DNA from: Amycolatopsis nalaikhensis
GTDB taxonomy: Bacteria > Actinomycetota > Actinomycetes > Mycobacteriales > Pseudonocardiaceae
Assembly (NCBI RefSeq): GCF_030264295.1
Contig: NZ_CP127173.1
Coordinates: 6,021,501 to 6,085,500 of the forward strand
Direction of reading: 5' to 3'
DNA length: 64,000 nucleotides
Below are positions 4,005 through 58,535 of the stretch, piece by piece; position 1 is the stretch's first letter, and every line of letters begins with the position of its first letter. The translations under genes and the position numbers were made by a program. A model generated the notes under the pieces. The model saw only the letters and a list, made by a program, of their open reading frames with translations. It did no database searches and was not told where the DNA came from.

Positions 4005-4018
4005 CCAAGCGCCCCAAT
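4005..4018. repeat. Left remnant of the ~95-bp modular palindrome, ending in the 3-bp IS target duplication
   Basis: The sequence CCAAGCGCCCCAAT is the outer arm of a palindromic intergenic repeat. Its continuation was displaced to 5088-5158 by the first insertion sequence and its far arm to 6241-6253 by the second. AAT at 4016-4018 is repeated at 5088-5090, forming the target duplication. Removing both insertion sequences rebuilds a ~95-bp element that matches, in reverse orientation, the intact copy near 9090-9184. Confidence 0.8.
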
Positions 4019-5087
4019 GGGGTTGTTTCATCGTGGTTTGGGCTGGTCACGGCGGGGGGACCGGGTGTGGTATCAGCTCAGGGCTGCGGGTCTCGGACGC
4101 TCTGCTCGTGCTGGGTGAGCACGAGCAGAGCGCGTAGCAGGGTGGTGGCGTGGCGGGTGTCGAGACGGAGTTTGTCGAGGATGTGCCAGTGTTTGAGGGC
4201 GGCGAATCCGCCTTCCACCGCGCACCGCATCGCCGCGAACGCGGCGTTGGCCTGTTTCTGGGCCTTGGTCAGCGGTCGGCGGGCTTCGGCTTTGTAAGGG
4301 GTGAGCACGACCTGCTCGCAGGGACCTGCGCAGACCGGGCAGTCGCGGGTGGCGCGGACGTCTTTGTGCCAGCCGTGGAACCCTTTGTCCCCGGCCGGGG
4401 TCAGGCCGTGGGCGTGCAGGTGCTGGCGGATGCGAAGCCGGCGGGCGGCGGTGATGTCGGCGGTCCTGCCCGGCAGCGCTGCCGAGACCCATAGCAGCCG
4501 GCCCTGCTCGTCGGTCAGCCCGAGCGTGACCAGGCCGTGCTGTTTGTGTTTGCCGCTGTAGTTGGCCCGGTTGGCGCGTCCGGTGCGGCGCCGGGTCCGG
4601 ATCAGGGTGCCGTCCACCAGCACTACCGACCCGCCTCGCGCGACCAGCCGCCGCAGGACGCGGTCCAGTCGCGTGGCGCGGGCGGCGAGCAGGCCGATGA
4701 CTTCCAGCACCCAGCGGCGCACCGTGGACGCGGATACGCTCAGGCCGCCGCCGATGTGGGCCAGGCGCGGGTCGTGGCGCAGCACCGCCAGTACCGCTAG
4801 TGCCTGCTCAGCGGGGGTGGCTTTGCGCCATCGTGACCGCAGCCGGGATCGGCGGGTGCGGATGAGCCCGGCGACCAGTTGCAGGGTTTGCCGCGAGAGC
4901 GGAAGGGTGACCTGGTAGGAAAGAGGACCGAAGCCCTCGGCGGGTGATTGACTCACATCTCGATCTTGCCGAGGGCTTCACCTATGTCCAGGCTCGCCGC
5001 GCTGGTCCGGGCACCACTTCTTACCGTCACAGGCAAACACCAGGAGCTCGACGGCCTGACCAGCCACGTTCACGATGAAACAACCCC
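4019..5087 (-). mobile_element. IS5-type insertion sequence, copy 1 (1,069 bp)
   Basis: A complete insertion sequence bounded by imperfect inverted repeats: GGGGTTGTTTCATCGTGG at the left end and the complement of CACGATGAAACAACCCC at the right end. Further matching bases (CTGGTCA) lie about 10 bp deeper. The flanking 3-bp duplication is AAT (4016-4018 and 5088-5090). It carries one transposase gene on the minus strand. It is a diverged relative of the copy at 5159-6240, in the same orientation, and only 71 bp of older repeat sequence lies between them. Confidence 0.9.
4078..4956 (-). CDS. Transposase, DDE_Tnp_4 (IS5-type), copy 1
   Basis: A 292-residue transposase that cuts and joins the ends of the surrounding insertion sequence. 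A helix-turn-helix region (residues about 25-90, including SVSASTVRRWVLEV) recognises the ends. The catalytic core follows, with Asp115 in LVDGTLIR, Asp190 in PAGDKGFHGWH and Glu248 in CAVEGGFAALK, so the DDE triad is intact and no frameshift is needed. Four cysteines near 206-213 (CPVCAGPC) may hold a metal. The protein is full length compared with copy 2 (296 residues), with most differences in the inter-domain region and the C-terminal tail. It appears capable of activity. Confidence 0.9.
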   Translation of the reverse strand: MSQSPAEGFGPLSYQVTLPLSRQTLQLVAGLIRTRRSRLRSRWRKATPAEQALAVLAVLRHDPRLAHIGGGLSVSASTVRRWVLEVIGLLAARATRLDRVLRRLVARGGSVVLVDGTLIRTRRRTGRANRANYSGKHKQHGLVTLGLTDEQGRLLWVSAALPGRTADITAARRLRIRQHLHAHGLTPAGDKGFHGWHKDVRATRDCPVCAGPCEQVVLTPYKAEARRPLTKAQKQANAAFAAMRCAVEGGFAALKHWHILDKLRLDTRHATTLLRALLVLTQHEQSVRDPQP

Positions 5088-5158
5088 AATGTGGCCTTCG
5101 GTGCGTCAGACGCAACCAAGGCGGCCTTCGGTGCGTGTGACGCAACCAAGGCCACATT
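5088..5158. repeat. Core of the modular palindromic repeat, trapped between two IS copies
   Basis: This 71-bp segment contains two alternating modules: a GGCCTTCGGTGCGT / ACGCAACCAAGGCC pair and a second, GGCGGCCTTCGG. They are separated by short self-complementary cores (GCGTCAGACGC and GCGTGTGACGC). The ends are AATGTGGCC and GGCCACATT. It is not part of either insertion sequence; the same order of modules occurs uninterrupted, in reverse orientation, at about 9090-9184. Confidence 0.8.
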
Positions 5159-6240
5159 GGGGTTGTTTCATCGTGGTTTGTGCTGGTCAGGTCGGGTTGG
5201 TGGTGTGTGGTAATGCTCAGGCCGGGTCTGGCCGGGCGGCGTCGCGGATGCTCTGCTCGTGCTGGGTCAGCACGAGCAGAGCCCGCAGCAATGTGGTGGC
5301 GTGGCGGGTGTCGAGGCGGAGCTTGCCCAGGATCCGCCAGGCCTTGAGGGCGGCGAAGCCGCCCTCCACCGCGCACCGCATCGCCGCGAACACGGCGTTC
5401 GCCTGCTTCTGGGCCTTGCTCAACGGCCGCCGGGTCTCGGCCTTGTAGGGAGTGAGCACGACGTGTTCACATGCTCCGCCGCAGGTGTCGCAGGCTGAGC
5501 TGTCGCGGACGTCTTTGTGCCAGCCGTGGAAGCCCTTGTCCCCGGCCGGGGACAAGCCATAGGTGTGCAGGCGTTCCCGGATCCGTAACCGGCGAGCGGC
5601 GGTGATGTCGGCGGTCTTGCCCGGCAACGCCGCCGACACCCACAGCAACCGGCCGTTTTCGTCGGTCAAGGCGAGCACGACCAGCCCGTGGTGTTTGTGT
5701 TTGCCGTTGTAGTTGGCCCGGTTCGCTTTTCCGGTGCGGCGGCGGGTCCGGATCAGGGTGCCGTCCACCAGCACCACCTCCGCACCCCGGGCGGCCTGGC
5801 GACGCAAGACCCGGTTCAGGCGGGTGGCGCGGGCGGCGAGCAGGGTGATCGCTTCCAGCACCCATCGCCGCACCGTGGACGCCGATACGCCCATACCGCC
5901 GCCGAGGTGAGCCAAGCGCTGGTCGTCACGCAGCACGGCGAGCACCACGAGTGCCTGGTCGGCGGGACCGGCTTTGCGCCAGCGCGAACGCAGCCGACGC
6001 CGATGGGTGCGGATCAGCCCGGCCAGCATCTGCAGGGTCGACTGCGAGAGCGGAAGGACAACCTGGTAGGAAATGGGCTCGAAGCCCTCGGCGGGTTGTT
6101 GACTCACATCTCGATCTTGCCGAGGGCTTCACCCGTCTCCAGGGCCGCCACGCCGGGTCCCGACCCCACTCCCTTGCCACCACAGACAACCACCCACCAC
6201 CCAGCGCCCCGACCAGCCACAACCAGGATGAAACAACCCC
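5159..6240 (-). mobile_element. IS5-type insertion sequence, copy 2 (1,082 bp)
   Basis: The second complete element has the same terminal sequence GGGGTTGTTTCATCGTGG on the left. Its right end is the complement of CAGGATGAAACAACCCC. The flanking duplication is ATT (5156-5158 and 6241-6243), which is the reverse complement of the AAT beside copy 1. The insertion therefore lies at the mirror-image position of the same palindrome. The internal sequence is related to copy 1 but clearly diverged, so this is a separate insertion rather than a recent tandem duplication. Confidence 0.9.
5217..6107 (-). CDS. Transposase, DDE_Tnp_4 (IS5-type), copy 2
   Basis: A 296-residue transposase, colinear with copy 1. 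It keeps the N-terminal helix-turn-helix (SVSASTVRRWVLEAI) and the three acidic catalytic motifs LVDGTLIRTRR, PAGDKGFHGWH and CAVEGGFAALK. The start MSQQPAEGFEP is equivalent to MSQSPAEGFGP in copy 1, which supports both start choices. The C-terminal tail is a little longer (RDAARPDPA). The cysteine cluster near residue 206 is also present (CDTCGGAC). No internal stop or frameshift is visible, so it is probably functional. Confidence 0.9.
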   Translation of the reverse strand: MSQQPAEGFEPISYQVVLPLSQSTLQMLAGLIRTHRRRLRSRWRKAGPADQALVVLAVLRDDQRLAHLGGGMGVSASTVRRWVLEAITLLAARATRLNRVLRRQAARGAEVVLVDGTLIRTRRRTGKANRANYNGKHKHHGLVVLALTDENGRLLWVSAALPGKTADITAARRLRIRERLHTYGLSPAGDKGFHGWHKDVRDSSACDTCGGACEHVVLTPYKAETRRPLSKAQKQANAVFAAMRCAVEGGFAALKAWRILGKLRLDTRHATTLLRALLVLTQHEQSIRDAARPDPA

Positions 6241-6262
6241 ATTGGGGCGCTTGGGGCCGGGC

Positions 6263-8344
6263 TCAGCGGCGGTCGTAGTCGACCGCGATCTCCGGGGTCG
6301 TTGCCCGCGAGCGGCACGTCAGGATGCGGCACGACGCCACGTCGTCCTCCGTGAGCGCGTAGCGGACGTCCATGTCGACCTGGCCGTGCAGCAGCGTCGC
6401 CCGGCACGTGCCGCACGCGCCGCCGGTGCACGAGTACGGCACCTCGAACCCGGCCCGCAACGCCGCGTCCAGCACCGTCTCCCCGGCCGCCGCCGCCACG
6501 TGCGTCGTCGTGCCGCCCAGTGTCACCGCCACCCGGGCCGCCGTGCCCGCCGGGTCGCGTGGGGGAGCCGCGCCGCGGAACAGTTCGAAGTGGACGTTCT
6601 CCTCCGGGACGTCCGCGTCCGCCAGCGTCCGCCGCGCCAGGTCCATCAGGCCGCGCGGCCCGCACAGGAACCACTCGTCGACCTTCGCCGGGTGGAGCCG
6701 GTTCTGCAGCAGCGCGCGCAGCCGCGTCCCGTCGAGCCGGCCGCGCTGGTACCGCACGTGGGAGATGGCGAGCGCCTCGCCGAGCGTGTCGAAGTGCCGG
6801 GGCCGGTGCGCGTGCAGGTCCGGGTCGCGCTCGTCGGTGCGGTAGTGGACGACGTGCAGCCGTCCGCCGAAGCCTTCGGCGAGCGTGCTCAGCTCCCGCG
6901 CGAACAACGTCGTCGCGCCCGAAGTGTTCACGTACAACAACGTCGCGCGGCTGTGCGGTTCCGCCGAGAGCGCGCTGACCAGGATGGACAGCACCGGCGT
7001 GATCCCGCTGCCCGCGGCCAGCGCGACGTAGTGCGCGGTCCGCGACGGGTCCGGTGTGAGCGTGAACGCGCCAGTGGGCGGGAGGACGTCGAGGAAGTCG
7101 CCCGCGGCCAGCGCCGTGGTCGCGAAGCCGGAGAACGCGCCGCCCGGGCGCCGCTTCACGGCGATCCGCAGCTCACCCGGGTCGGCGGGCGCGCAGATCG
7201 AGTACGTCCGCCGCACCGGCTGCCCGTCGAGCACCGCGCGGACCGCCACGTGCTGGCCCGGCGTGAACCGGAACTCCGCCGCCAGGTGCGGCGGGACGTC
7301 GAAGGTGATCGCGACGGCGTCGGCGGTCAGCGGCCGGACCTCCCGCACCCGCAGCCGGTGGAACCGGCTCGGCCCGTGCGGCGGCGGCTCCGGGGCGGGC
7401 TCGTCGGCGAGGTCGCAGGTCAGCCGCCGCCACGCGCGGTACTCCGCCGGCGTCAGCTCGCGGCCCCACGCCGTGATGATCGGGACGTCGCGGGCCAGGT
7501 ACGCCTCGCGGTTGTCCTTCCACGCCCGCAGGTAGCGGTAGAACGGCACGGCGGGGTGGAGGTGGTGGACCAGGTGGTAGTTCTGGTACAGCATCATCGG
7601 CGTCATCAGCCACTCCAGCCCCACCCGCACCCGCGTGGTGCCGAACTTGTCGCGCGGCTTCGCGGCGGGCAAGCCGTGGTGCGGCAGCCAGTCGAACCAC
7701 CAGGCCAGCACGGCCAGCCCGAGCCGCTGCGGCACGACGTACCCGAGCAGCAGCTCCCAGCCGTGGCCGGTGGCGACGAGCGTGGCGGCCGCGGCGAACG
7801 CCACCGACAGCGTCACGATCGTCTCGGCCCGCTCCTGCGGCGGGCGGCTGCGCACGCGCACGGTGTAGAAGCGCGCGTACCAGAAGTCGATGGTCAGCCA
7901 GCGGAACGGCAGCGACCACCACACACCCTGCGACGTCCAGGCGTCCGGGTCGGTGTGCGAGTCCGCGTTCGTGTTCCGGTGGTGCTCGCTGTGGATGAAC
8001 CGCAGCAGCGGGAAGGACGCGTAGGCCGCGACGAACGGCATCGCCAGCCTGCCGAGCACCTCGTTGACCCAGGTCAGCTTCCCGGCGGCGTGGTGGGCCG
8101 ACTCGTGCACCACGGTGAACATGGTGAAGGTGACGATCGCGTGCAGCGGCACGGTGTACAGCGGTGGCGCGATCCCGGCGAGCAGGAGCCAGGTGGCGGT
8201 GCCCCACAGCGCGACGCCGCCGGTGAACAGCAGGAGCGTCGGCACCGACAGGCGCGGCAGCGGGATGCGGGGCGACGGCACCGCGCGCGGCAGGACGGCC
8301 GAGGACGTCCCGGAGCCACGCGGCGGGGTATCGACGACGGGCAT
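6263..8344 (-). CDS. Fused membrane fatty-acid desaturase/hydroxylase - ferredoxin reductase - 2Fe-2S ferredoxin
   Basis: A 693-residue, apparently self-sufficient oxygenase. Residues about 35-290 form an integral-membrane di-iron desaturase/CrtR-like domain with histidine boxes HESAHH (80-85), HSEHH (118-122) and HLVHH (257-261). Residues about 328-575 are a flavin/NAD(P)H reductase (RTYSICAPAD for flavin, AAGSGITPVLS for nucleotide, FLCGPRGLMD). The last ~90 residues are a plant-type [2Fe-2S] ferredoxin (YSCTGGACGTC plus a later Cys in ILTCRS). In mycobacterial DesA3/Oxy-type systems the desaturase and its reductase are separate genes, whereas here electron transport is built in. The substrate (acyl lipid, carotenoid or sterol-like) is unknown. 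The gene is divergent from a TetR regulator across 138 bp, which probably controls it. Confidence 0.9.
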   Translation of the reverse strand: MPVVDTPPRGSGTSSAVLPRAVPSPRIPLPRLSVPTLLLFTGGVALWGTATWLLLAGIAPPLYTVPLHAIVTFTMFTVVHESAHHAAGKLTWVNEVLGRLAMPFVAAYASFPLLRFIHSEHHRNTNADSHTDPDAWTSQGVWWSLPFRWLTIDFWYARFYTVRVRSRPPQERAETIVTLSVAFAAAATLVATGHGWELLLGYVVPQRLGLAVLAWWFDWLPHHGLPAAKPRDKFGTTRVRVGLEWLMTPMMLYQNYHLVHHLHPAVPFYRYLRAWKDNREAYLARDVPIITAWGRELTPAEYRAWRRLTCDLADEPAPEPPPHGPSRFHRLRVREVRPLTADAVAITFDVPPHLAAEFRFTPGQHVAVRAVLDGQPVRRTYSICAPADPGELRIAVKRRPGGAFSGFATTALAAGDFLDVLPPTGAFTLTPDPSRTAHYVALAAGSGITPVLSILVSALSAEPHSRATLLYVNTSGATTLFARELSTLAEGFGGRLHVVHYRTDERDPDLHAHRPRHFDTLGEALAISHVRYQRGRLDGTRLRALLQNRLHPAKVDEWFLCGPRGLMDLARRTLADADVPEENVHFELFRGAAPPRDPAGTAARVAVTLGGTTTHVAAAAGETVLDAALRAGFEVPYSCTGGACGTCRATLLHGQVDMDVRYALTEDDVASCRILTCRSRATTPEIAVDYDRR

Positions 8345-8482
8345 CGAGCGGTCTCCTCGGTCGAGAAGCTCCTGGCGAGGCGGGAGTCACCGTAGACAAC
8401 TCCTCGGGGTTTGTAAACGTATGGGCAAGGTCTGAAAAAAGGTCCCGGCCAGCGAAACGCAAGGGGTCGGTAAGCTCGGCGT
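8345..8482. promoter_or_regulatory. Divergent promoter region between desaturase fusion and TetR gene
   Basis: A 138-bp spacer between two outward-facing genes. Near its middle lies GTTTGTAAACGTATG. GTTTGTAAAC is close to a perfect inverted repeat (GTTT-GT-AAAC) and is the only AT-containing island here. It is the best candidate for the operator of the neighbouring TetR protein. This rests on symmetry and position only. Confidence 0.4.
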
Positions 8483-9073
8483 GTGAAGGCCGTCACCCAC
8501 CCCGCACCGGCCAGCACCCGCGACCGGCTGCTGGACGCGGCGGCCGCCGTCATCGCCGCGGACGGCTGGGCCGCGGTGACGATGGGGAAGCTGGCCGCGC
8601 GGGTCGGCGTCAGCCGGCAGACCGTCTACAACGAACTCGGCTCCAAGACCGAGCTCGCCGAAGCGCTCATGCTCCGCGAGACCGACCGCTTCGCCGAGCG
8701 CGTGACCGAGGTCGTCGCCGCCCACCCCGGCCGCCCGGTCGACGGGGTCACCGCGGCGTTCCGGCACACGCTCGAAGCCGCCAGGGTCAACCCGCTGCTC
8801 GAGCTCGCGCTGGGCGGCGCCCCGGGCGGCCGCGACGACTTCCTCCCGCTGCTCACGTCGCGGCCCGAGGCGGTGCTCGGGCGGTCGGTCGAAACGGTCG
8901 CCGCGCTGTTCGCGCACTGCTACCCGGAGGTGCGGCTGACGCCGTCGGAGTGGGCGGTCGCGGTCGAGGCCTTCGTCCGGCTCCTGCTCTCCCACCTGGT
9001 GCAGCCCAGCGGGTCGGCCGAGCACGCCAGCGGCCAGATGCGCTGGGTGATCGGCCGGATGCTCGGCGCCTGA
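8483..9073 (+). CDS. TetR-family transcriptional regulator
   Basis: A 196-residue regulator with an N-terminal TetR helix-turn-helix (RDRLLDAAAAVIAADGWAAV, then GVSRQTVYNELGSK) and a variable ligand-binding C-terminal half. The start is a GTG at 8483. It faces away from the desaturase fusion gene and probably represses it in response to a lipid-like ligand. The intergenic stretch 8345-8482 is less G+C-rich than its surroundings (GGTTTGTAAACGTATGGG near 8408-8425), and TTTGTAAAC there is a plausible operator half-palindrome. The gene ends just before the ~95-bp palindromic repeat. Confidence 0.88.
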   Translation: MKAVTHPAPASTRDRLLDAAAAVIAADGWAAVTMGKLAARVGVSRQTVYNELGSKTELAEALMLRETDRFAERVTEVVAAHPGRPVDGVTAAFRHTLEAARVNPLLELALGGAPGGRDDFLPLLTSRPEAVLGRSVETVAALFAHCYPEVRLTPSEWAVAVEAFVRLLLSHLVQPSGSAEHASGQMRWVIGRMLGA

Positions 9074-9088
9074 CCCTGCACCGCCCGA

Positions 9089-9184
9089 CCCAAGCGCCCC
9101 AAGGCGGCCTTGGTTGCGTCTGACGCACCGAAGGCCGCCTTGGGTGCGTCAGACGCACCGAAGGCCACATTGGGGCGCTCGGGC
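9089..9184. repeat. Intact ~95-bp modular palindromic intergenic repeat
   Basis: The outer arms are CCCAAGCGCCCCAA and TTGGGGCGCTCGGG. Between them alternate GGC(C/G)GCCTTGG and CCGAAGGCC modules, spaced by the cores GCGTCTGACGC and GCGTCAGACGC. The element lies just after the TetR gene and before tig. Read in reverse it matches the IS-split copy (4005-4018, 5088-5158, 6241-6253) almost base for base. It can fold into a long hairpin and may act as a terminator, but there is no T-run. Confidence 0.85.
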
Positions 9185-9229
9185 CCGGGGACTCGGTGGC
9201 CCCCGACCGGGCCGCGAAGGCCACTGGCC

Positions 9230-12131: not shown

Positions 12132-12141
12132 ATCCGCCAGG

Positions 12142-12175
12142 CCGGTGTGTGTCGAGAAGACGACACACACCGGCA
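12142..12175 (+). terminator. Perfect 14-bp hairpin after clpP2
   Basis: GCCGGTGTGTGTCG (12142-12155) and CGACACACACCGGC (12162-12175) form a perfect stem with a 6-nt loop AGAAGA. A T-poor tail follows. It is positioned as the terminator of the clpP1-clpP2 unit. Confidence 0.8.
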
Positions 12176-15095: not shown

Positions 15096-15100
15096 CCCGG

Positions 15101-15146
15101 CTCGTGAGTGTTCAGGGCGGTTAGAACCGCCCTGAACACTCACGAG
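15101..15146. repeat. 46-bp near-perfect palindrome, also a candidate bidirectional terminator
   Basis: Arms of 22 bp (CTCGTGAGTGTTCAGGGCGG at the left, completed by TT, and its exact complement at 15125-15146) surround a 2-bp centre AG. It lies between two convergent genes, 5 bp after one stop codon and 13 bp before the other. The same palindrome, with T for C at one position, is present at 20839-20868 and 23511-23525, split by an insertion sequence. Confidence 0.9.
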
Positions 15147-15159
15147 CGAGCAGGCGCGG

Positions 15160-20816: not shown

Positions 20817-20838
20817 CGTCCGCCAGTCGCCCCGCCGG

Positions 20839-20868
20839 TCGTGAGTGTTTAGGGCGGTTCTAACCGCC
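20839..20868. repeat. Left part of the second 46-bp palindrome plus 16-bp target duplication
   Basis: GTCGTGAGTGTTTAGGGCGG and the following bases up to 20868 form the left arm, the centre CT and the first bases of the right arm. The last 16 bp (20853-20868, GGCGGTTCTAACCGCC) are repeated exactly at 23495-23510, where the palindrome resumes and ends at 23525. The insertion sequence therefore entered at the centre of the hairpin. Confidence 0.88.
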
Positions 20869-20951
20869 TGTCCCAGTTCAGGACATCGTGAACAGGTGAT
20901 GTTTCAGGACATCGTGGACACTGACCGGCCTGTCAGTGTGGTGACCAGTAG

Positions 20952-21478
20952 TTGTGTGGTGATCATGCGGCGATGGGCAGAGCAGGGTTTTCGATGGATC
21001 CTGAGTTCGTCGCCGCGGTCGCGCAGGCTGCGTCGGGTGAGAAAATCAACATCGCACGGTTCTGCCGCGAGCACGGCGTGTCCCGCACGGTGTTCCACAA
21101 GTACCTGAACCGGTTCCGCGCCGAAGGCGCCGAAGGGTTCACCCGCCGCAGCACCGCCCCGCACCACCACCCGGCCGCGCTCGGGCCGACGGTGGCGGAG
21201 GCGGTGCTGCGGGCCCGCAAAGAACTCGCCGACGAAGGGCTCGACAACGGGCCGATCTCGATCCGCTGGCGGCTGGAAGCCCAGGGCCACGACCGGGTGC
21301 CATCGCAGTCGGCGGTCTACCGGATCCTGCGCGAACACGGCCAGATCGTCCCGCAACCCCGCAAGAAACCCCGCACCCGGCGCCGGTTCGAATACGCCGA
21401 CCCCAACGGCTGCTGGCAGATCGACGGCATGGAACACTACCTCGCCGACGGCACCAAGGTCTGCATCATCCAGCTCCT
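20952..21478 (+). pseudogene. IS481-type transposase, N-terminal part
   Basis: This fragment gives the first ~175 codons of an integrase-like transposase. It has a helix-turn-helix (NIARFCREHGVSRTVFHKYL), a second DNA-binding region (PSQSAVYRILREHG) and the first catalytic Asp in GCWQIDGMEHYLADG. The natural start is one of the ATGs at 20973 or 20994 (MDPEFVAAVAQAA). The frame is broken at IIQLL by the IS3-family insertion. The in-frame tail GPPR and its stop (21492-21494) come from the inner element. Confidence 0.85.
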
Positions 21479-21518
21479 TGGACCGCCCCGGTGATGTTGG
21501 AGGCCGGTTGAGTTGGTT

Positions 21519-22367
21519 CTAGACCACTGCGCCAGACTCAGTGGCCGTGGCGCGGAACGTCTCCTCGTACTCAGCCGGAGGGGTGTTCCCGCAGAAAGAA
21601 TGTAGCCGTTCCCTGTTGTACCAGGCAACCCATTCCATGGTGGCCAGCGTCACGTCCGTGGTGTTCTCCCAGTCGCCTCGGTAGTCGATGAGCTCCTTCT
21701 TGTAGAGACTGTTGAGCGATTCGGCTGCGGCATTGTCATAGGAATCTCCTGTGCTGCCCACCGAACGCGCCGCGCCGATCTGATCAAGCCGCTCGGCGTA
21801 GCGAATGGAGGTATATTGAACGCCTCTATCGGAATGGTGAACAAGACCGTCAATACCGCCTCCGGAACTGCCTCCACGTGCCCAGATTGCCATCTCCAGA
21901 GCGTCGAGCGCGAGGTCGGCACCCAGGTGATCGGCGACCTGCCAGCCGAGGATCCGCCGGGAGTACAGGTCCTGGACGAACGCGGTGTACGCCCAGCCGG
22001 CCGCGGTGGCGACGTAGGTGATGTCGGCGACCCACCGCTGGTCCGGCGCGTCCGCGGTGAAGTCACGTTCAAGCAGGTCACCTGGCCTGTCCGCAGCCGG
22101 GATGGTGGTCCGTGGCCGCTTACGGGGCGCAGTCACCCCGCTGATACCCAGCTCGCGCATCAGCCGCTCGACCGTGCACCGCGCCACCTCGACACCGTCC
22201 CGACCGAGCTGGCGCCATACCTTCCGTGCCCCGTACAGGCCACGCCCCGGCCCATGCCACACCCGCAGAATCTCCTTCTTCAGCCATTCGTCCCGGACCG
22301 CGCGAGCAGACGGGGCCGACTCCCGTTTCTTCGCCGCCCAATACGTCGACGGCGACACCTCCAGCAC
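21519..22367 (-). CDS. IS3-family transposase OrfB (integrase core)
   Basis: This is the catalytic half of the IS3-family transposase. The core has an HTH_21 region (WLKKEILRVWHGPGRGLYGARKVW-like, here in segments), then a DDE domain: Asp in QRWVADITYV, Asp in LVHHSDRGVQYTS, and Glu in YDNAAAESLNSLYK. The ORF in this frame remains open upstream of the listed start to the slip site G-TTT-TTC at 22460-22454. The functional product is therefore probably the OrfAB fusion, with residues such as LVEFIDTHRDQFGVEPIC from the overlap. No defect is visible. Confidence 0.9.
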   Translation of the reverse strand: MLEVSPSTYWAAKKRESAPSARAVRDEWLKKEILRVWHGPGRGLYGARKVWRQLGRDGVEVARCTVERLMRELGISGVTAPRKRPRTTIPAADRPGDLLERDFTADAPDQRWVADITYVATAAGWAYTAFVQDLYSRRILGWQVADHLGADLALDALEMAIWARGGSSGGGIDGLVHHSDRGVQYTSIRYAERLDQIGAARSVGSTGDSYDNAAAESLNSLYKKELIDYRGDWENTTDVTLATMEWVAWYNRERLHSFCGNTPPAEYEETFRATATESGAVV

Positions 22368-22420
22368 GGCACAGATCGGCTCGACACCGAACTGATCCCG
22401 GTGGGTATCGATGAACTCGA

Positions 22421-22738
22421 CTAGCGCGGCGGTTTCGGGTCGAGTTCCCGGGCGAAAAACGCCGACGCGGCCTTCAGGATCTCGTTCGCCCGTCGCAGTT
22501 CACGATTCTCCCGCTCCAGCTCAGCGATCCGCTGGATATCACTTGTCGACGTACCGGGCCGCTTCCCACCATCGACCTCGGCCTGCCGCACCCAGGTCCG
22601 CAACGCCTCCCGATGCACACCAAGCTGGTCAGCGACCCGAGCGATCACACCCGTCCGCTCGCCCTGCTCACGTAGCTCAAAGACCATCCGGACCGCACGT
22701 TCCCGCAGCTCAGACGAGTATTTCCTCGGTGGTGCCAT
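22421..22738 (-). CDS. IS3-family transposase OrfA
   Basis: A 105-residue DNA-binding protein of the IS3 family. It has a helix-turn-helix (YSSELRERAVRMVFE, then VADQLGVHREALRTWVRQAE) and a C-terminal leucine-zipper coiled coil (IQRIAELERENRELRRANEI). Near the 3' end, GCG-TTT-TTC-GCC provides a slippery run for -1 frameshifting into OrfB. It ends LDPKPPR. Confidence 0.9.
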   Translation of the reverse strand: MAPPRKYSSELRERAVRMVFELREQGERTGVIARVADQLGVHREALRTWVRQAEVDGGKRPGTSTSDIQRIAELERENRELRRANEILKAASAFFARELDPKPPR

Positions 22739-22790
22739 AGCTCCTCACCTTTCCAGGTATCAGAGCCTCCAACCAACCCGGGGCGGTCCA

Positions 22791-23460
22791 CCTCGACGAC
22801 CACTCCCGCCTCGACGTCGGCACCTACGCCGCGGACAGCGAGAACACCACCAACGCCTGGGCCGCGCTGCAACACGCCTTCGCCGGCTACGGCCTGCCCG
22901 TCAAACTCCTCTCCGACAACGGGCTGGCCTTCTCCGGCAAACACCGCGGCCGGATGGTCGAACTCGAACGCCACCTCGCCCAGCTCGGCGTCACCACCAT
23001 CGCCTCCACCCCGCACCACCCGCAAACCTGCGGCAAGGACGAACGCAGCCACCAGACCCTGCAGAAATGGCTCGCCGCCCGACCACCCGCCGACAACCTC
23101 GCAACCCTGCAACGGCTTCTCGACGAATACCGCACGATCTACAACAACCGCCGCCACCAAAGCCTCAACGGCCTCACCCCACAGCAGCGCTACGACGCCC
23201 GACCGAAAGCCACCCCCGCCACCGGCCCTCGCCGGCCCAGCGGCGTCACCACCCGACCTGTCTCAGCCACCGGCGTGATCGCCTTCTCCGGCTGCTCCAT
23301 CGTCCTGGGACGCACCTGGGCCGGTCACACCGCCACCATCTACTGGCAAGGCGACCGCGTCACAGTCATGATCAACGACACGGTCGCCCGCCAGCTCACC
23401 CTAGACCGATCGGTACGCTACCAACGCCTCACCAACCCCAAACTGTCTGCGAAGTCCTGA
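22791..23460 (+). pseudogene. IS481-type transposase, C-terminal part
   Basis: This is the rest of the split transposase, resuming as LDDHSRLDVGTYAADSENT directly after the CCT duplication. The second Asp is in KLLSDNGLAFSG and the Glu in GKDERSHQTLQKWL. The IS481-typical tail YNNRRHQSLNGLTPQQRYD is followed by a beta-rich C-terminal domain. Joining 21478 to 22794 restores one open frame of about 620 codons minus the insert, so the split is a single event with no further decay. Confidence 0.88.
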
Positions 23461-23494
23461 AACACATCTGTTCACGAAGTCCTGAAACATGACA

Positions 23495-23525
23495 GGCGGT
23501 TCTAACCGCCCTAAACACTCACGAC
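23495..23525. repeat. Right part of the second 46-bp palindrome
   Basis: The 16-bp target duplication (23495-23510) followed by the outer right arm CTAAACACTCACGAC. Together with 20839-20868 it rebuilds the same palindrome seen at 15101-15146. The downstream SDR gene starts 46 bp later. Confidence 0.88.
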
Positions 23526-23570
23526 CGGGCCTGGGATCATGGTGCGCGTAACCGACTTCGGAGGTGTGCC

Positions 23571-26018: not shown

Positions 26019-26630
26019 ATGCGCAGCCGCGTCGCCATCGGGTGGGTGCTCGCCGCCCTCATTTCGGCCGTTCTCTGCGCCGGCTGCTCGTCGGCGTCCG
26101 CCTCGGCGCACTACCCCGGCGCGATCGACGCCTGCAAGCTGCCGGGGCCGAACGCGCGGACCCAGCTCGCGCCCGGGACCGTGGAGATCCCGGCCGACTC
26201 GGTGAAGACCGCCGAAGCAAAGATCGTGCCCCAGGACCGCTCCAGCGACGACAACGAGCTCACCACCTGCAAGCGGCTCTTCGCCCGCGACCTCGGCGGC
26301 GGGAAGCCGAACCTGCAGGACTACCGGCTCGTCACGATCGCCGTCGTGCGGTTCACCACGTCCGACGCCGACGAGGCCGCCACCAAGGCCAGCCAGCTGA
26401 TGACCGACGCGCTGGGCGACCACTCGGGGGTCCGGCTCGCCACCGGGGTCGGGGACGAGGCCGGGTTCTCCGAGCAGTGGGCGGCCGTGCGCACCGGGAA
26501 CGTGGTGCTCGTGCTGGCCATCGCCGACGGCGGCACCGAGGCCGCGCTGATCCCGCCCGCGACCCTGGACAACATCCAGGCGATGGTCACGGACATGACC
26601 ACCACGCTGCAGCGCGACTACCAGGGCTGA
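26019..26630 (+). CDS. Lipoprotein of unknown function
   Basis: A 203-residue secreted lipoprotein: signal peptide with lipobox LCAGCSS (Cys22), followed by a soluble domain. Two further cysteines (DACKLPG and TTCKRLF) may pair. The fold hints at the DUF3558-like class of actinobacterial lipoproteins (beta-strand pattern, GVGDEAGFSEQWAAVRTGNVVLVLAI), but this is not certain. Its TGA stop lies inside the first arm of a 77-bp repeat. It is convergent with the molybdopterin oxidoreductase gene. Confidence 0.8.
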   Translation: MRSRVAIGWVLAALISAVLCAGCSSASASAHYPGAIDACKLPGPNARTQLAPGTVEIPADSVKTAEAKIVPQDRSSDDNELTTCKRLFARDLGGGKPNLQDYRLVTIAVVRFTTSDADEAATKASQLMTDALGDHSGVRLATGVGDEAGFSEQWAAVRTGNVVLVLAIADGGTEAALIPPATLDNIQAMVTDMTTTLQRDYQG

Positions 26631-26699
26631 AGGGGACTTTGCTCGCATCTGACGCGAGGAAAGTCCCCTTCAGCGCACCAGATGCACTGAACGTCCCCT

Positions 26700-26703
<4 letters not shown>
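26627..26703. repeat. 77-bp composite palindromic repeat, copy 1
   Basis: CTGAAGGGGACTTTGCTCGC (26627-26646) pairs imperfectly with GCGAGGAAAGTCCCCTTCAG (26654-26673). A 30-bp half unit ending GAACGTCCCCTTCAG follows. The element supplies the TGA stop codons of both convergent genes (26628-26630 on plus, 26700-26702 on minus). The same 77-bp design recurs at 48610-48686 and, inverted, at 58029-58105. Confidence 0.88.
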
Positions 26704-29009
<2,306 letters not shown>

Positions 29010-34961: not shown

Positions 34962-34994
34962 GAGGCGGCACTTTCCCTACGAAAGTGCCGCCTC
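34962..34994. terminator. Bidirectional hairpin between valS and LysR gene
   Basis: GAGGCGGCACTTTC (34962-34975) and GAAAGTGCCGCCTC (34981-34994) form a perfect 14-bp stem with loop CCTAC. The right arm overlaps the stop codon of the LysR gene (34993-34995), so it serves both convergent genes. Confidence 0.8.
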
Positions 34995-42195: not shown

Positions 42196-42253
42196 GTAGT
42201 GACAGTGACTGACGCTACGAACGGTACCGCGTAATGTCAGTCGCTGTCACTAC
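42196..42253. promoter_or_regulatory. Large inverted-repeat operator between epimerase and TetR gene
   Basis: GTAGTGACAGTGACTGAC (42196-42213) and GTCAGTCGCTGTCACTAC (42236-42253) are 18-bp arms with a single mismatch, separated by 22 bp. Each arm also contains a weaker internal symmetry (CAGTGACTG). The positions suit repression of both divergent promoters by the TetR protein. Confidence 0.8.
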
Positions 42254-48576: not shown

Positions 48577-48609
48577 CGACCAGGATCCGACCCACCCGGC
48601 CGATGCGGG

Positions 48610-48686
48610 CTGAAGGGTCCTTTCCTCGCATCAGATGCGAGGAAAGGACCCTTCAGCGCGTCAGATGCGACGAACGTCCCCTTCAG
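48610..48686. repeat. 77-bp composite palindromic repeat, copy 2
   Basis: A perfect 23-bp-arm palindrome (48610-48632 and 48634-48656) begins CTGAAGGGTCCTTTCCTCGC and ends GGAAAGGACCCTTCAG. The 30-bp half unit CGCGTCAGATGCGACGAACG, followed by TCCCCTTCAG, follows to 48686. It lies between phoD and ndk. It has the same length and order as copy 1. Confidence 0.9.
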
Positions 48687-48768
48687 CTCCATTCCGACCG
48701 GCGAATCCGGCCGCTGAACAGGGTCGGCTACGCTCACGCGCACCGATACGCAACCGCAACAGTGACAT

Positions 48769-57878: not shown

Positions 57879-58535
57879 CGGACCTCCCACCGGATGCAGG
57901 AACCGCGGGTGCCGGCGCGCGAGATCCCGGTCACCCCGAGCCGCACGGTAGCCACCCCGTGCCCGGCGGACAAGCGGTACGGCCAAGTTCCCCCGGCCGG
58001 TGGGCCCGGCGACGTGGCCCGAAGCGTGCTGAAGGGGACGTTCGTCTCGTCCGACGCGCTGAAGGGTCCTTTCCTCGCATGTGATGAGACGAACGGACCC
58101 TTCAGCCCGCCCCGGCCGGTGGGCTCGCGGCGCGCCCGGCGGCGTGGGCGGAGGTACCGAGTACACCGGAGCAGTCACCCGGTGTGGGATACTCGGGGTG
58201 GCCGCTGGGCCGCGGGGCGCACGTGAGAGGTGCTGCCTGCGGCGTTGTGGCCCGGTGAGGTGCATGTACAGCACGACGCGCGTCGCCGCCCGTTGGCGGG
58301 CGGCTGGACGACGTGGCGGGCGGCCCGGGGGCCGCGAATGCCTGGCCACGCACAGCGCCGAGCAGACCTTTGACCGGGTTGCGCGTCACCGAGTGCGGTG
58401 GTGCGGCGCCCGGTCGTCGGGCAAGGATTCCCGTCGCTGGTGACCACCACGGCGGAACGAGCAGAAAGGGGCCCCTGCGCGGCCGCGTCCCTGCCGGTGC
58501 GAACCGGCAGACGCGCCCGGGGGCGGAGGAGACAC
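57879..58535. other. 657-bp divergent spacer with a 77-bp repeat and the rne leader
   Basis: The spacer lies between the protease and rne. It contains repeat copy 3 (58029-58105) and then about 430 bp without a convincing ORF. GATACT at 58189-58194 is a possible -10 box, and TTTGACCGGG near 58370 a possible -35. A GC-rich hairpin (GCCGGTGCGAACCGGC) precedes the rne start, with GGAGGAG as ribosome site. A long leader is usual for RNase E genes, which regulate themselves through it. Confidence 0.5.
58029..58105. repeat. 77-bp composite palindromic repeat, copy 3 (inverted)
   Basis: Here the half unit comes first (CTGAAGGGGACGTTCGTCTC to 58058) and the palindrome second (58059-58105, CTGAAGGGTCCTTTCCTCGC ... 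GGACCCTTCAG). Its palindrome is diverged in the right arm (GAGACGAACGGACC). The order is the mirror of copies 1 and 2. The total length is again 77 bp. Confidence 0.88.

Follow-up and report, generated by a model that had tools for sequence, protein, structure and literature searches.

To our knowledge, the REP-associated tyrosine transposases (RAYTs) are the only known dedicated enzymes of widespread palindromes resembling the repetitive extragenic palindromic (REP) sequences of bacteria. Passages of two papers report that RAYT genes are flanked by REP palindromes and that enzyme and palindrome co-evolve (PMC3733652, PMC8266576), and as described in the former the CGTC REPs, which are dispersed palindromes as are those treated here, have no dedicated transposase (Di Nocera et al. 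2013, PMC3733652). The main text of that paper contains neither "actinob-" nor Amycolatopsis nor Streptomyces; REP-like sequences without a tag are mentioned there for M. tuberculosis. Here we analyze the palindromes in a 64,000-nucleotide stretch of the 10.67-Mb single-contig chromosome of Amycolatopsis nalaikhensis (contig NZ_CP127173.1, positions 6021501-6085500; below called the window), above all a family that we call A, together with a family of genes for nuclease-like proteins bracketed by such palindromes elsewhere in the genome. Our favored reading, to which we assign a probability of roughly 0.6, is that the family-A palindrome is a REP-like, dispersed and non-autonomous element with a nuclease-like partner that is not a RAYT, that is bracketed by the same palindrome and that disperses it. 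The evidence for this is the linkage, family specificity, co-divergence and co-occurrence of palindromes and genes, a paralogue (P4) devoid of both catalytic motif and palindromes, and the variation in presence and absence of palindromes and of cassettes between genomes; from these sequence comparisons we infer that the protein mobilizes the palindromes.

The likeness to the REP/BIME-RAYT system (REPtron; BIME, bacterial interspersed mosaic element), as portrayed in the passages mentioned, lies in extragenic palindromes of high copy number found mostly after genes, and in an enzyme gene that is flanked by palindromes, here on both sides in 37 and on at least one side in 73 of 80 named loci (the best 80 of 96 relatives from named genomes, with some genomes contributing several). 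The system differs in that the flanked gene encodes a protein of AbiEi-Vsr fold and not an HUH/Y1 transposase, and in that the palindrome body measures 85 bp and contains two hairpin cores, compared to 20-40 bp for a REP. Mobilization by a RAYT was ruled out, as the host genome gave no match to the Y1 transposase profile (PF01797), for which 5 of 14 control genomes were positive. The GTAG foot of REPs was absent, by eye, from the 85-bp bodies of 30 host copies. The system thus resembles REP/RAYT in its working and is not a member of it, because the enzyme is of another kind. In the CGTC REPs, as far as they are described in PMC3733652, the tag is an unpaired end and the stem is 8-9 bp, whereas here the arms are longer and CGTC, which not all palindromes have, is part of the paired apex. 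The open-access full-text literature yielded no paper on the pairing of palindromes with an AbiEi-Vsr-fold gene.

The window carries one intact copy of the family-A palindrome, and one copy in three pieces at a location between convergent genes, hereafter site 1:

9094-9178, unstranded: intact family-A palindrome, 85-bp body GCGCCCC...GGGGCGC (9084-9188 with flanking extensions)
9116-9126, unstranded: hairpin core 1 (GCGTCTGACGC), from the motif scan
9146-9156, unstranded: hairpin core 2 (GCGTCAGACGC), 30 bp from core 1, from the motif scan
4009-4018, unstranded: left piece of the split family-A copy, site 1
4019-5087, minus strand: insertion sequence 1 with a transposase open reading frame (ORF) at 4078-4956 (DDE_Tnp_4), inserted at AAT of CCCC-AAT-GTGG
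5088-5158, unstranded: middle piece of the split copy, site 1
5159-6240, minus strand: insertion sequence 2 with a transposase ORF at 5217-6107 (DDE_Tnp_4), inserted at the mirror-image site ATT
6241-6250, unstranded: right piece of the split copy, site 1

A preliminary description of the stretch had reported two nearly identical palindromes in opposite orientation, one of them rebuilt by taking out two insertion sequences. Both claims are borne out: the segments 5084-5162 and 9097-9175 form inverted arms of 79 nt with 92% complementarity, and because of this complementarity the reassembly from 4009-4018, 5088-5158 and 6241-6250 is right. A scan of the window for known RNA families at gathering thresholds gave zero matches.

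Family A follows the plan arm, core, arm, core, arm with a period of 30 bp, an architecture of which we found no description in the open-access full-text literature. As single-stranded DNA the 105-nt intact copy folds with -49.6 kcal/mol (z = -9.8, with 0 of 200 shuffles as good). When the 85-bp bodies of the 30 best host-genome copies are compared, 66 positions are invariant, and four of the five columns where at least four copies differ are located in the two 3-nt loops, the fifth (column 35) being outside; the loop triplets of these copies are CAG (29), CTG (16), GAG (11), GTG (2), CTT (1) and TGG (1). We also compared 43 distinct elements of family A, of which the host genome contributed 18. 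Because this set was chosen by a pattern that fixes many conserved letters, its invariant columns prove nothing; the outer pair 13:67 was C-G in 27, G-C in 13, A-T in 2 and A-G in 1 of these elements, that is, pairing was retained through two-sided changes in 42 of 43, and mismatches were frequent at other positions. The middle bases vary in other genomes (TTGGA, TCCAG, TTCAA, TGGGG).

The core motif GCRTCNGAYGC occurs six times in the window, where 1.8 are expected, and 332 times in the genome compared to 25 for the reversed pattern. In a 0.9955-Mb sample of the host genome, with genes called by a simple codon-score script, we counted 37 intergenic occurrences (281 per Mb) and 5 in coding DNA (5.8 per Mb), a 48-fold denser intergenic distribution; the reversed-pattern control gave 0 and 4, respectively. 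The preliminary description had regarded the core as a module common to otherwise different families, and as accidental if it were not enriched in intergenic over coding DNA. Given the two densities the sharing is not accidental in this sense. The modular construction stood only in part. Three dispersed families (A, B and C) were named in the window and a fourth, D, elsewhere in the host genome; A and B have the core in common and repeat the same arm-core plan with different arms, while C and D are devoid of the core by eye, so that cores as universal modules were ruled out. Rather than a module that stands by itself, the core is the inner end (apex) of the hairpin. A core alone does not hold the families together; they also share homologous nuclease-like genes, each residing inside its own palindrome family, and the product of the bracketed gene appears to be a better candidate for binding the core than the host protein proposed earlier.

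The gene was first met at site 1 in two relatives (L071 and L075), where it lies in a cassette of the order palindrome-gene-palindrome and encodes a product of 317 amino acids. Homologues were found in all 75 genomes of the genus sample, host included, with 1-10 per genome at E values of 1e-20 or better, and in the genera Amycolatopsis, Prauserella, Kibdelosporangium, Kutzneria, Lentzea, Actinophytocola, Allokutzneria, Saccharomonospora, Haloechinothrix, Pseudonocardia, Rhodococcus, Prescottella and others. A profile search of the host genome returned five paralogues, the first of which is 87% identical to a homologue in Amycolatopsis eburnea:

5999371-6000306: P1, family A on both sides
6290519-6291454: P2, family B on both sides (the family of window positions 26624, 48607 and 58026)
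6376138-6377076, minus strand: P3, flanked on each side by family D as judged by eye, with only the upstream copy scored by the script
1332650-1333540: P4, with AWQYR in place of the AWEIDS of the other paralogues
1719020-1719292 (extent of the match): P5 (L239), distant, frame apparently broken, family C upstream

At the 3' end of P5 half a family-C palindrome (the family of window positions 15100 and 20837/23495) overlaps the stop codon. Each of the window families A, B and C thus has its matching gene at another place in the genome, since P1, P2 and P5 pair with them. In the 3.9-kb locus of P4, which lacks the catalytic motif, the script found no palindrome.

The remaining members of these families in the window are as follows:

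26624-26704, unstranded: family-B palindrome, arm-core plan as in A with different arms, absent from the corresponding site of G067 and G037
48607-48687, unstranded: family-B palindrome, from sequence comparison
58026-58106, unstranded: family-B palindrome, whose site shows an imperfect duplication some 15 bp long
15100-15147, unstranded: family-C palindrome, a single hairpin without the GCRTCNGAYGC core
20837-20868, unstranded: left piece of a family-C palindrome split by the insertion 20869-23494
23495-23527, unstranded: right piece of the same palindrome

The two cassette proteins had no match in curated Pfam and NCBIfam, the Pfam matches among 51 members of the family were weak (AbiEi_4 in 16, DUF559 in 4 and MTES_1575 in 4, with E up to 0.1), and the one match in a PDB sequence search (E 0.98) was meaningless; AbiEi profiles matched P1 with E 6e-12. 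An AlphaFold2 model built with 51 homologues had a mean pLDDT (predicted local distance difference test) of 90.9, and its top Foldseek matches were M. tuberculosis Rv2827c (E 5.5e-5) and an AbiEi antitoxin (E 1.6e-4). With a second aligner, residues 5-197 matched the AbiEi antitoxin 6y8q (Z 11.5, root-mean-square deviation 6.7), and residues 202-307 matched the catalytic domain of I-Bth0305I (Z 12.9, 2.5 A over 96 residues) and Vsr (Z 11.3). The residues E205, D238, E249, D251 and H256 are invariant in the 51 homologues, as a Vsr-like nuclease would presumably need. According to the model, the protein would consist of an AbiEi-like N-terminal part and a C-terminal part with the fold of Vsr and homing endonucleases, and we refer to it as a nuclease-like, predicted nuclease. 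It shares the C-terminal fold, and apparently the location of the gene between copies of a putative target, with EDxHD/Vsr homing endonucleases such as I-Bth0305I, and is different from these in the AbiEi-like N-terminus and in the many potential target palindromes per genome. With the AbiE type IV toxin-antitoxin systems it has the AbiEi-like N-terminal part in common; here this part is fused to a domain of nuclease fold, and palindromes bracket the gene.

The linkage of gene and palindrome is evident from the 80 loci. Within 400 bp and at a score of at least 13, the setting behind the counts given above, a palindrome was present upstream of 67 and downstream of 43 genes; at a stricter score of at least 15 the numbers were 61 upstream, 40 downstream and 33 on both sides. 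When the surroundings were divided into 150-bp bins, palindromes were found in 46 of 79 first and 18 of 77 second upstream bins and in 42 of 80 first downstream bins, compared to 30 of 2874 (1.0%) and 15 of 3008 (0.5%) for all other upstream and downstream bins, respectively. The pairing is also specific: the two palindromes of one gene had a mean similarity of 0.86 as opposed to 0.21 between loci, and a palindrome's own partner was the best match at 29 of 33 loci (those of the 37 two-sided loci with palindromes scoring at least 15). Protein and palindrome similarity were correlated (Mantel r = 0.62, n = 41, p = 0.0001) for the 41 of 51 proteins with a scored palindrome, part of the correlation being due to shared ancestry of the loci. 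Finally, all 20 genomes carrying a gene of the P1 clade (at least 60% identity), out of 75 genomes counted, had 47-524 matches to the family-A arm, and among the 55 genomes without such a gene 44 had fewer than 40 matches and 21 of these had none (Fisher p = 1e-10, treating genomes as independent of ancestry). Collectively, the partnership of a palindrome family with a nuclease-like gene appears well supported at the sequence level.

The AbiEi-like N-terminus and the frequent upstream palindromes might instead point to an operator, since AbiEi antitoxins repress their own promoters. The AbiEi-like part would then repress its own gene through the palindrome, and the dispersed copies would be further binding sites for regulation or chromosome organization and not mobile progeny. 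We regard this as very improbable, as the dispersed copies avoid divergent, promoter-bearing regions (2 of 38 placed copies), palindromes downstream and upstream of a gene belong to one family, and the palindrome sites differ between species.

Upstream of the genes themselves two other motifs were enriched. TGTCGG was present within 120 nt in 30 of 80 cases (4.3 expected), mostly followed by CANNNT at a fixed spacing, which we take to resemble the PafBC/RecA-NDp DNA-damage promoter, assuming a consensus that was not confirmed in the main text of the papers searched for the term. TTRTCCACA, presumably a form of the DnaA box, occurred within 300 nt at 25 of 80 loci (0.6 expected). Among the broader DUF559 relatives, of which the host genome has none (17 loci in 9 of 13 genomes), the link to palindromes is only partial, because a palindrome was found upstream of 6 and downstream of 3. 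At one of these loci (L290), a long palindrome whose arms differ from those of the main families stands on each side of the DUF559 gene, which hints that the link extends beyond the family studied here.

For the dispersal in the chromosome, family A was found in at least 40 places with 93-100% identity to the window copy, window copy included, a lower bound since scoring covered 40 of the 179 candidates from the first look. In the 0.9955-Mb sample there were 40 palindromes of the four families (15 A, 11 B, 9 C and 5 D), assigned by regular expression, which left at least two family-B copies among 122 "other" palindromes. Of these 40, 19 were located between convergent and 17 between tandem genes, 2 between divergent genes, 2 at an edge and none inside genes. 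Since 11% of the intergenic bases are convergent and 34% divergent, there is a clear excess of convergent locations (p = 3e-9 by intergenic bases, 3e-7 by regions) and a deficit of divergent ones (p = 3e-5 and 7e-5, respectively). This distribution would suit a host function in which the palindromes terminate transcription in both directions or protect RNA as hairpins and do no more for the nuclease gene than insulate it, and so would the strong hairpin formed by the palindrome as RNA (-82.7 kcal/mol) and one convergent site at which four genomes each have a different palindrome. We consider such a role improbable as the explanation, since terminators leave the upstream palindromes (67 of 80) unexplained, as they do the use of one family per nuclease gene and the co-divergence with the protein.

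Comparison of the sites between genomes, for which 75 genomes were searched and 29 relatives gave loci, revealed variation for both palindromes and cassettes. The element at 9094-9178 was absent from all 28 readable relatives, in 21 of which exactly 36 nt correspond to 150 nt of the window. Of the 27 relatives readable at site 1, 9 carried a palindrome of family A, 3 one of another kind and 13 none, and 2 were too diverged; of the 9 carriers, 7 had a solo palindrome and 2 the cassette. At position 6.12 Mb the host has a solo palindrome and L092 and L095 have a cassette between the same flanks. The solo and cassette states were seen at these two sites, and the direction of the change could be either. 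At one site the cassette was inverted between genomes (L087, L093), and the genes of 33 loci (homologues of at least 60% identity) occupied 11 neighborhoods, a set that merges two genome sets and may count one genome twice for some loci. Two family-B insertions begin at a GGCTGA already present in the empty site. In addition, genome G067 has family-A elements at two separate sites (block offsets 92394 and 127861; L073) whose short extra inserts resemble each other and occupy the same portion of the element.

The solo and cassette states at site 1 and at 6.12 Mb are what one would expect if homing came first, that is, if the palindromes spread by other means and a free-standing homing endonuclease cut a solo palindrome, into which the gene was copied so that a palindrome remained on each side. 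The same family on both flanks of the gene and a C-terminal fold nearest to the homing endonuclease I-Bth0305I agree with this. The collapse of a cassette to a solo palindrome by recombination would, however, give an identical pattern, and new palindrome sites as well as a copy number that tracks the gene are left unexplained unless another enzyme moves the palindromes; we therefore find homing first unlikely. Dissemination of the palindromes by the protein seems the most likely mechanism on the present comparisons.

Several observations speak against dissemination by a nuclease-like partner. A palindrome was missing upstream in 13, downstream in 37 and on either side in 7 of the 80 loci, and some of those counted (e.g. 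L166, L168 and L180) are short and may be unrelated. Eleven of the 55 genomes without a P1-clade gene have 47-352 family-A arm matches, which may reflect gene loss or another partner, and the 60% limit of the clade was chosen after the hit list had been seen. Z values of about 10 were also obtained for the C-terminal domain with RAP-domain proteins (mitoribosome chains, FASTKD4), so the fold alone is no proof of a nuclease. The placement after genes also suits terminators, and the four different palindromes at one convergent site fit selection for having a palindrome there. A search of viral contigs gave 86 pattern matches, none of them a relative, which ruled out a viral origin, and there was a single plasmid match to P1. 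Lastly, at 13 filled sites compared with relatives by eye no constant target duplication was found, and the compared insertions often include extra DNA that is not part of the element. A simple DDE-type insertion or a miniature inverted-repeat transposable element was thereby ruled out, and the insertion pattern therefore suggests break repair rather than DDE transposition.

Dispersal by the nuclease-like partner could proceed as follows. The N-terminal part would recognize the family-specific arms, and the nuclease domain would cut or nick the hairpin or cruciform near its apex. Break repair would then copy or join palindromes, sometimes with the gene between two of them, into new places. Insertions would mostly persist after genes, chiefly between convergent genes, because they break nothing there.

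Insertion sequences appear to use the palindromes as well, possibly as harmless landing sites. The two in the window are about 80% identical and lie at mirror-image sites of one palindrome with target duplications of 3 bp (AAT, ATT) by eye, a length based on the ninth copy of the group, which is outside any palindrome and has AGT flanks. The other 8 of the 9 genome copies are within family-A palindromes at the same AAT/ATT. ISPpu9 targets REPs, according to passages of PMC8450116, and the window group likewise uses one site in palindromes; it differs in using another palindrome family and in its DDE_Tnp_4-type transposase. A further element (20869-23494) with integrase-core (rve) ORFs lies in the center of a family-C palindrome, and GGCGGTTCTAACCGCC at both its ends constitutes a 16-bp duplication.

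Three further palindromes were noted in the window. A small type at 34962-34994, GGCGGCACTTTC-CCTAC-GAAAGTGCCGCC, recurs several times in the host-genome sample. The palindrome GCCGGTGTGTGTCGAGAAGACGACACACACCGGC at 12141-12174 is conserved, unlike the mobile families, because it is identical in the G037 and G003 blocks, and is possibly an operator near what we take, from gene order, to be clp genes. The palindrome at 42196-42253, in a divergent intergenic region, has a near counterpart in the G003 block and resembles a conserved operator.

In a wider and more tentative interpretation, which we put at somewhat less than an even chance, the Pseudonocardiaceae and Rhodococcus relatives would harbor a second, independent bacterial palindrome replicator. 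Its families of extragenic palindromes, some of which have several hairpins, would each rely on an AbiEi-Vsr-fold nuclease of their own instead of an HUH transposase and would spread through hairpin cutting and break repair; expression might be coupled to DNA damage and DnaA. If the partnership proposed here is true, an unrelated second class of enzyme has its own palindromes, and this lifestyle would have arisen more than once. A family of uncharacterized actinobacterial genes would gain a testable function, and many intergenic palindromes of Amycolatopsis genomes would be explained. Because the families are distinct and the pairs specific, the rules of recognition may be readable from natural variation.

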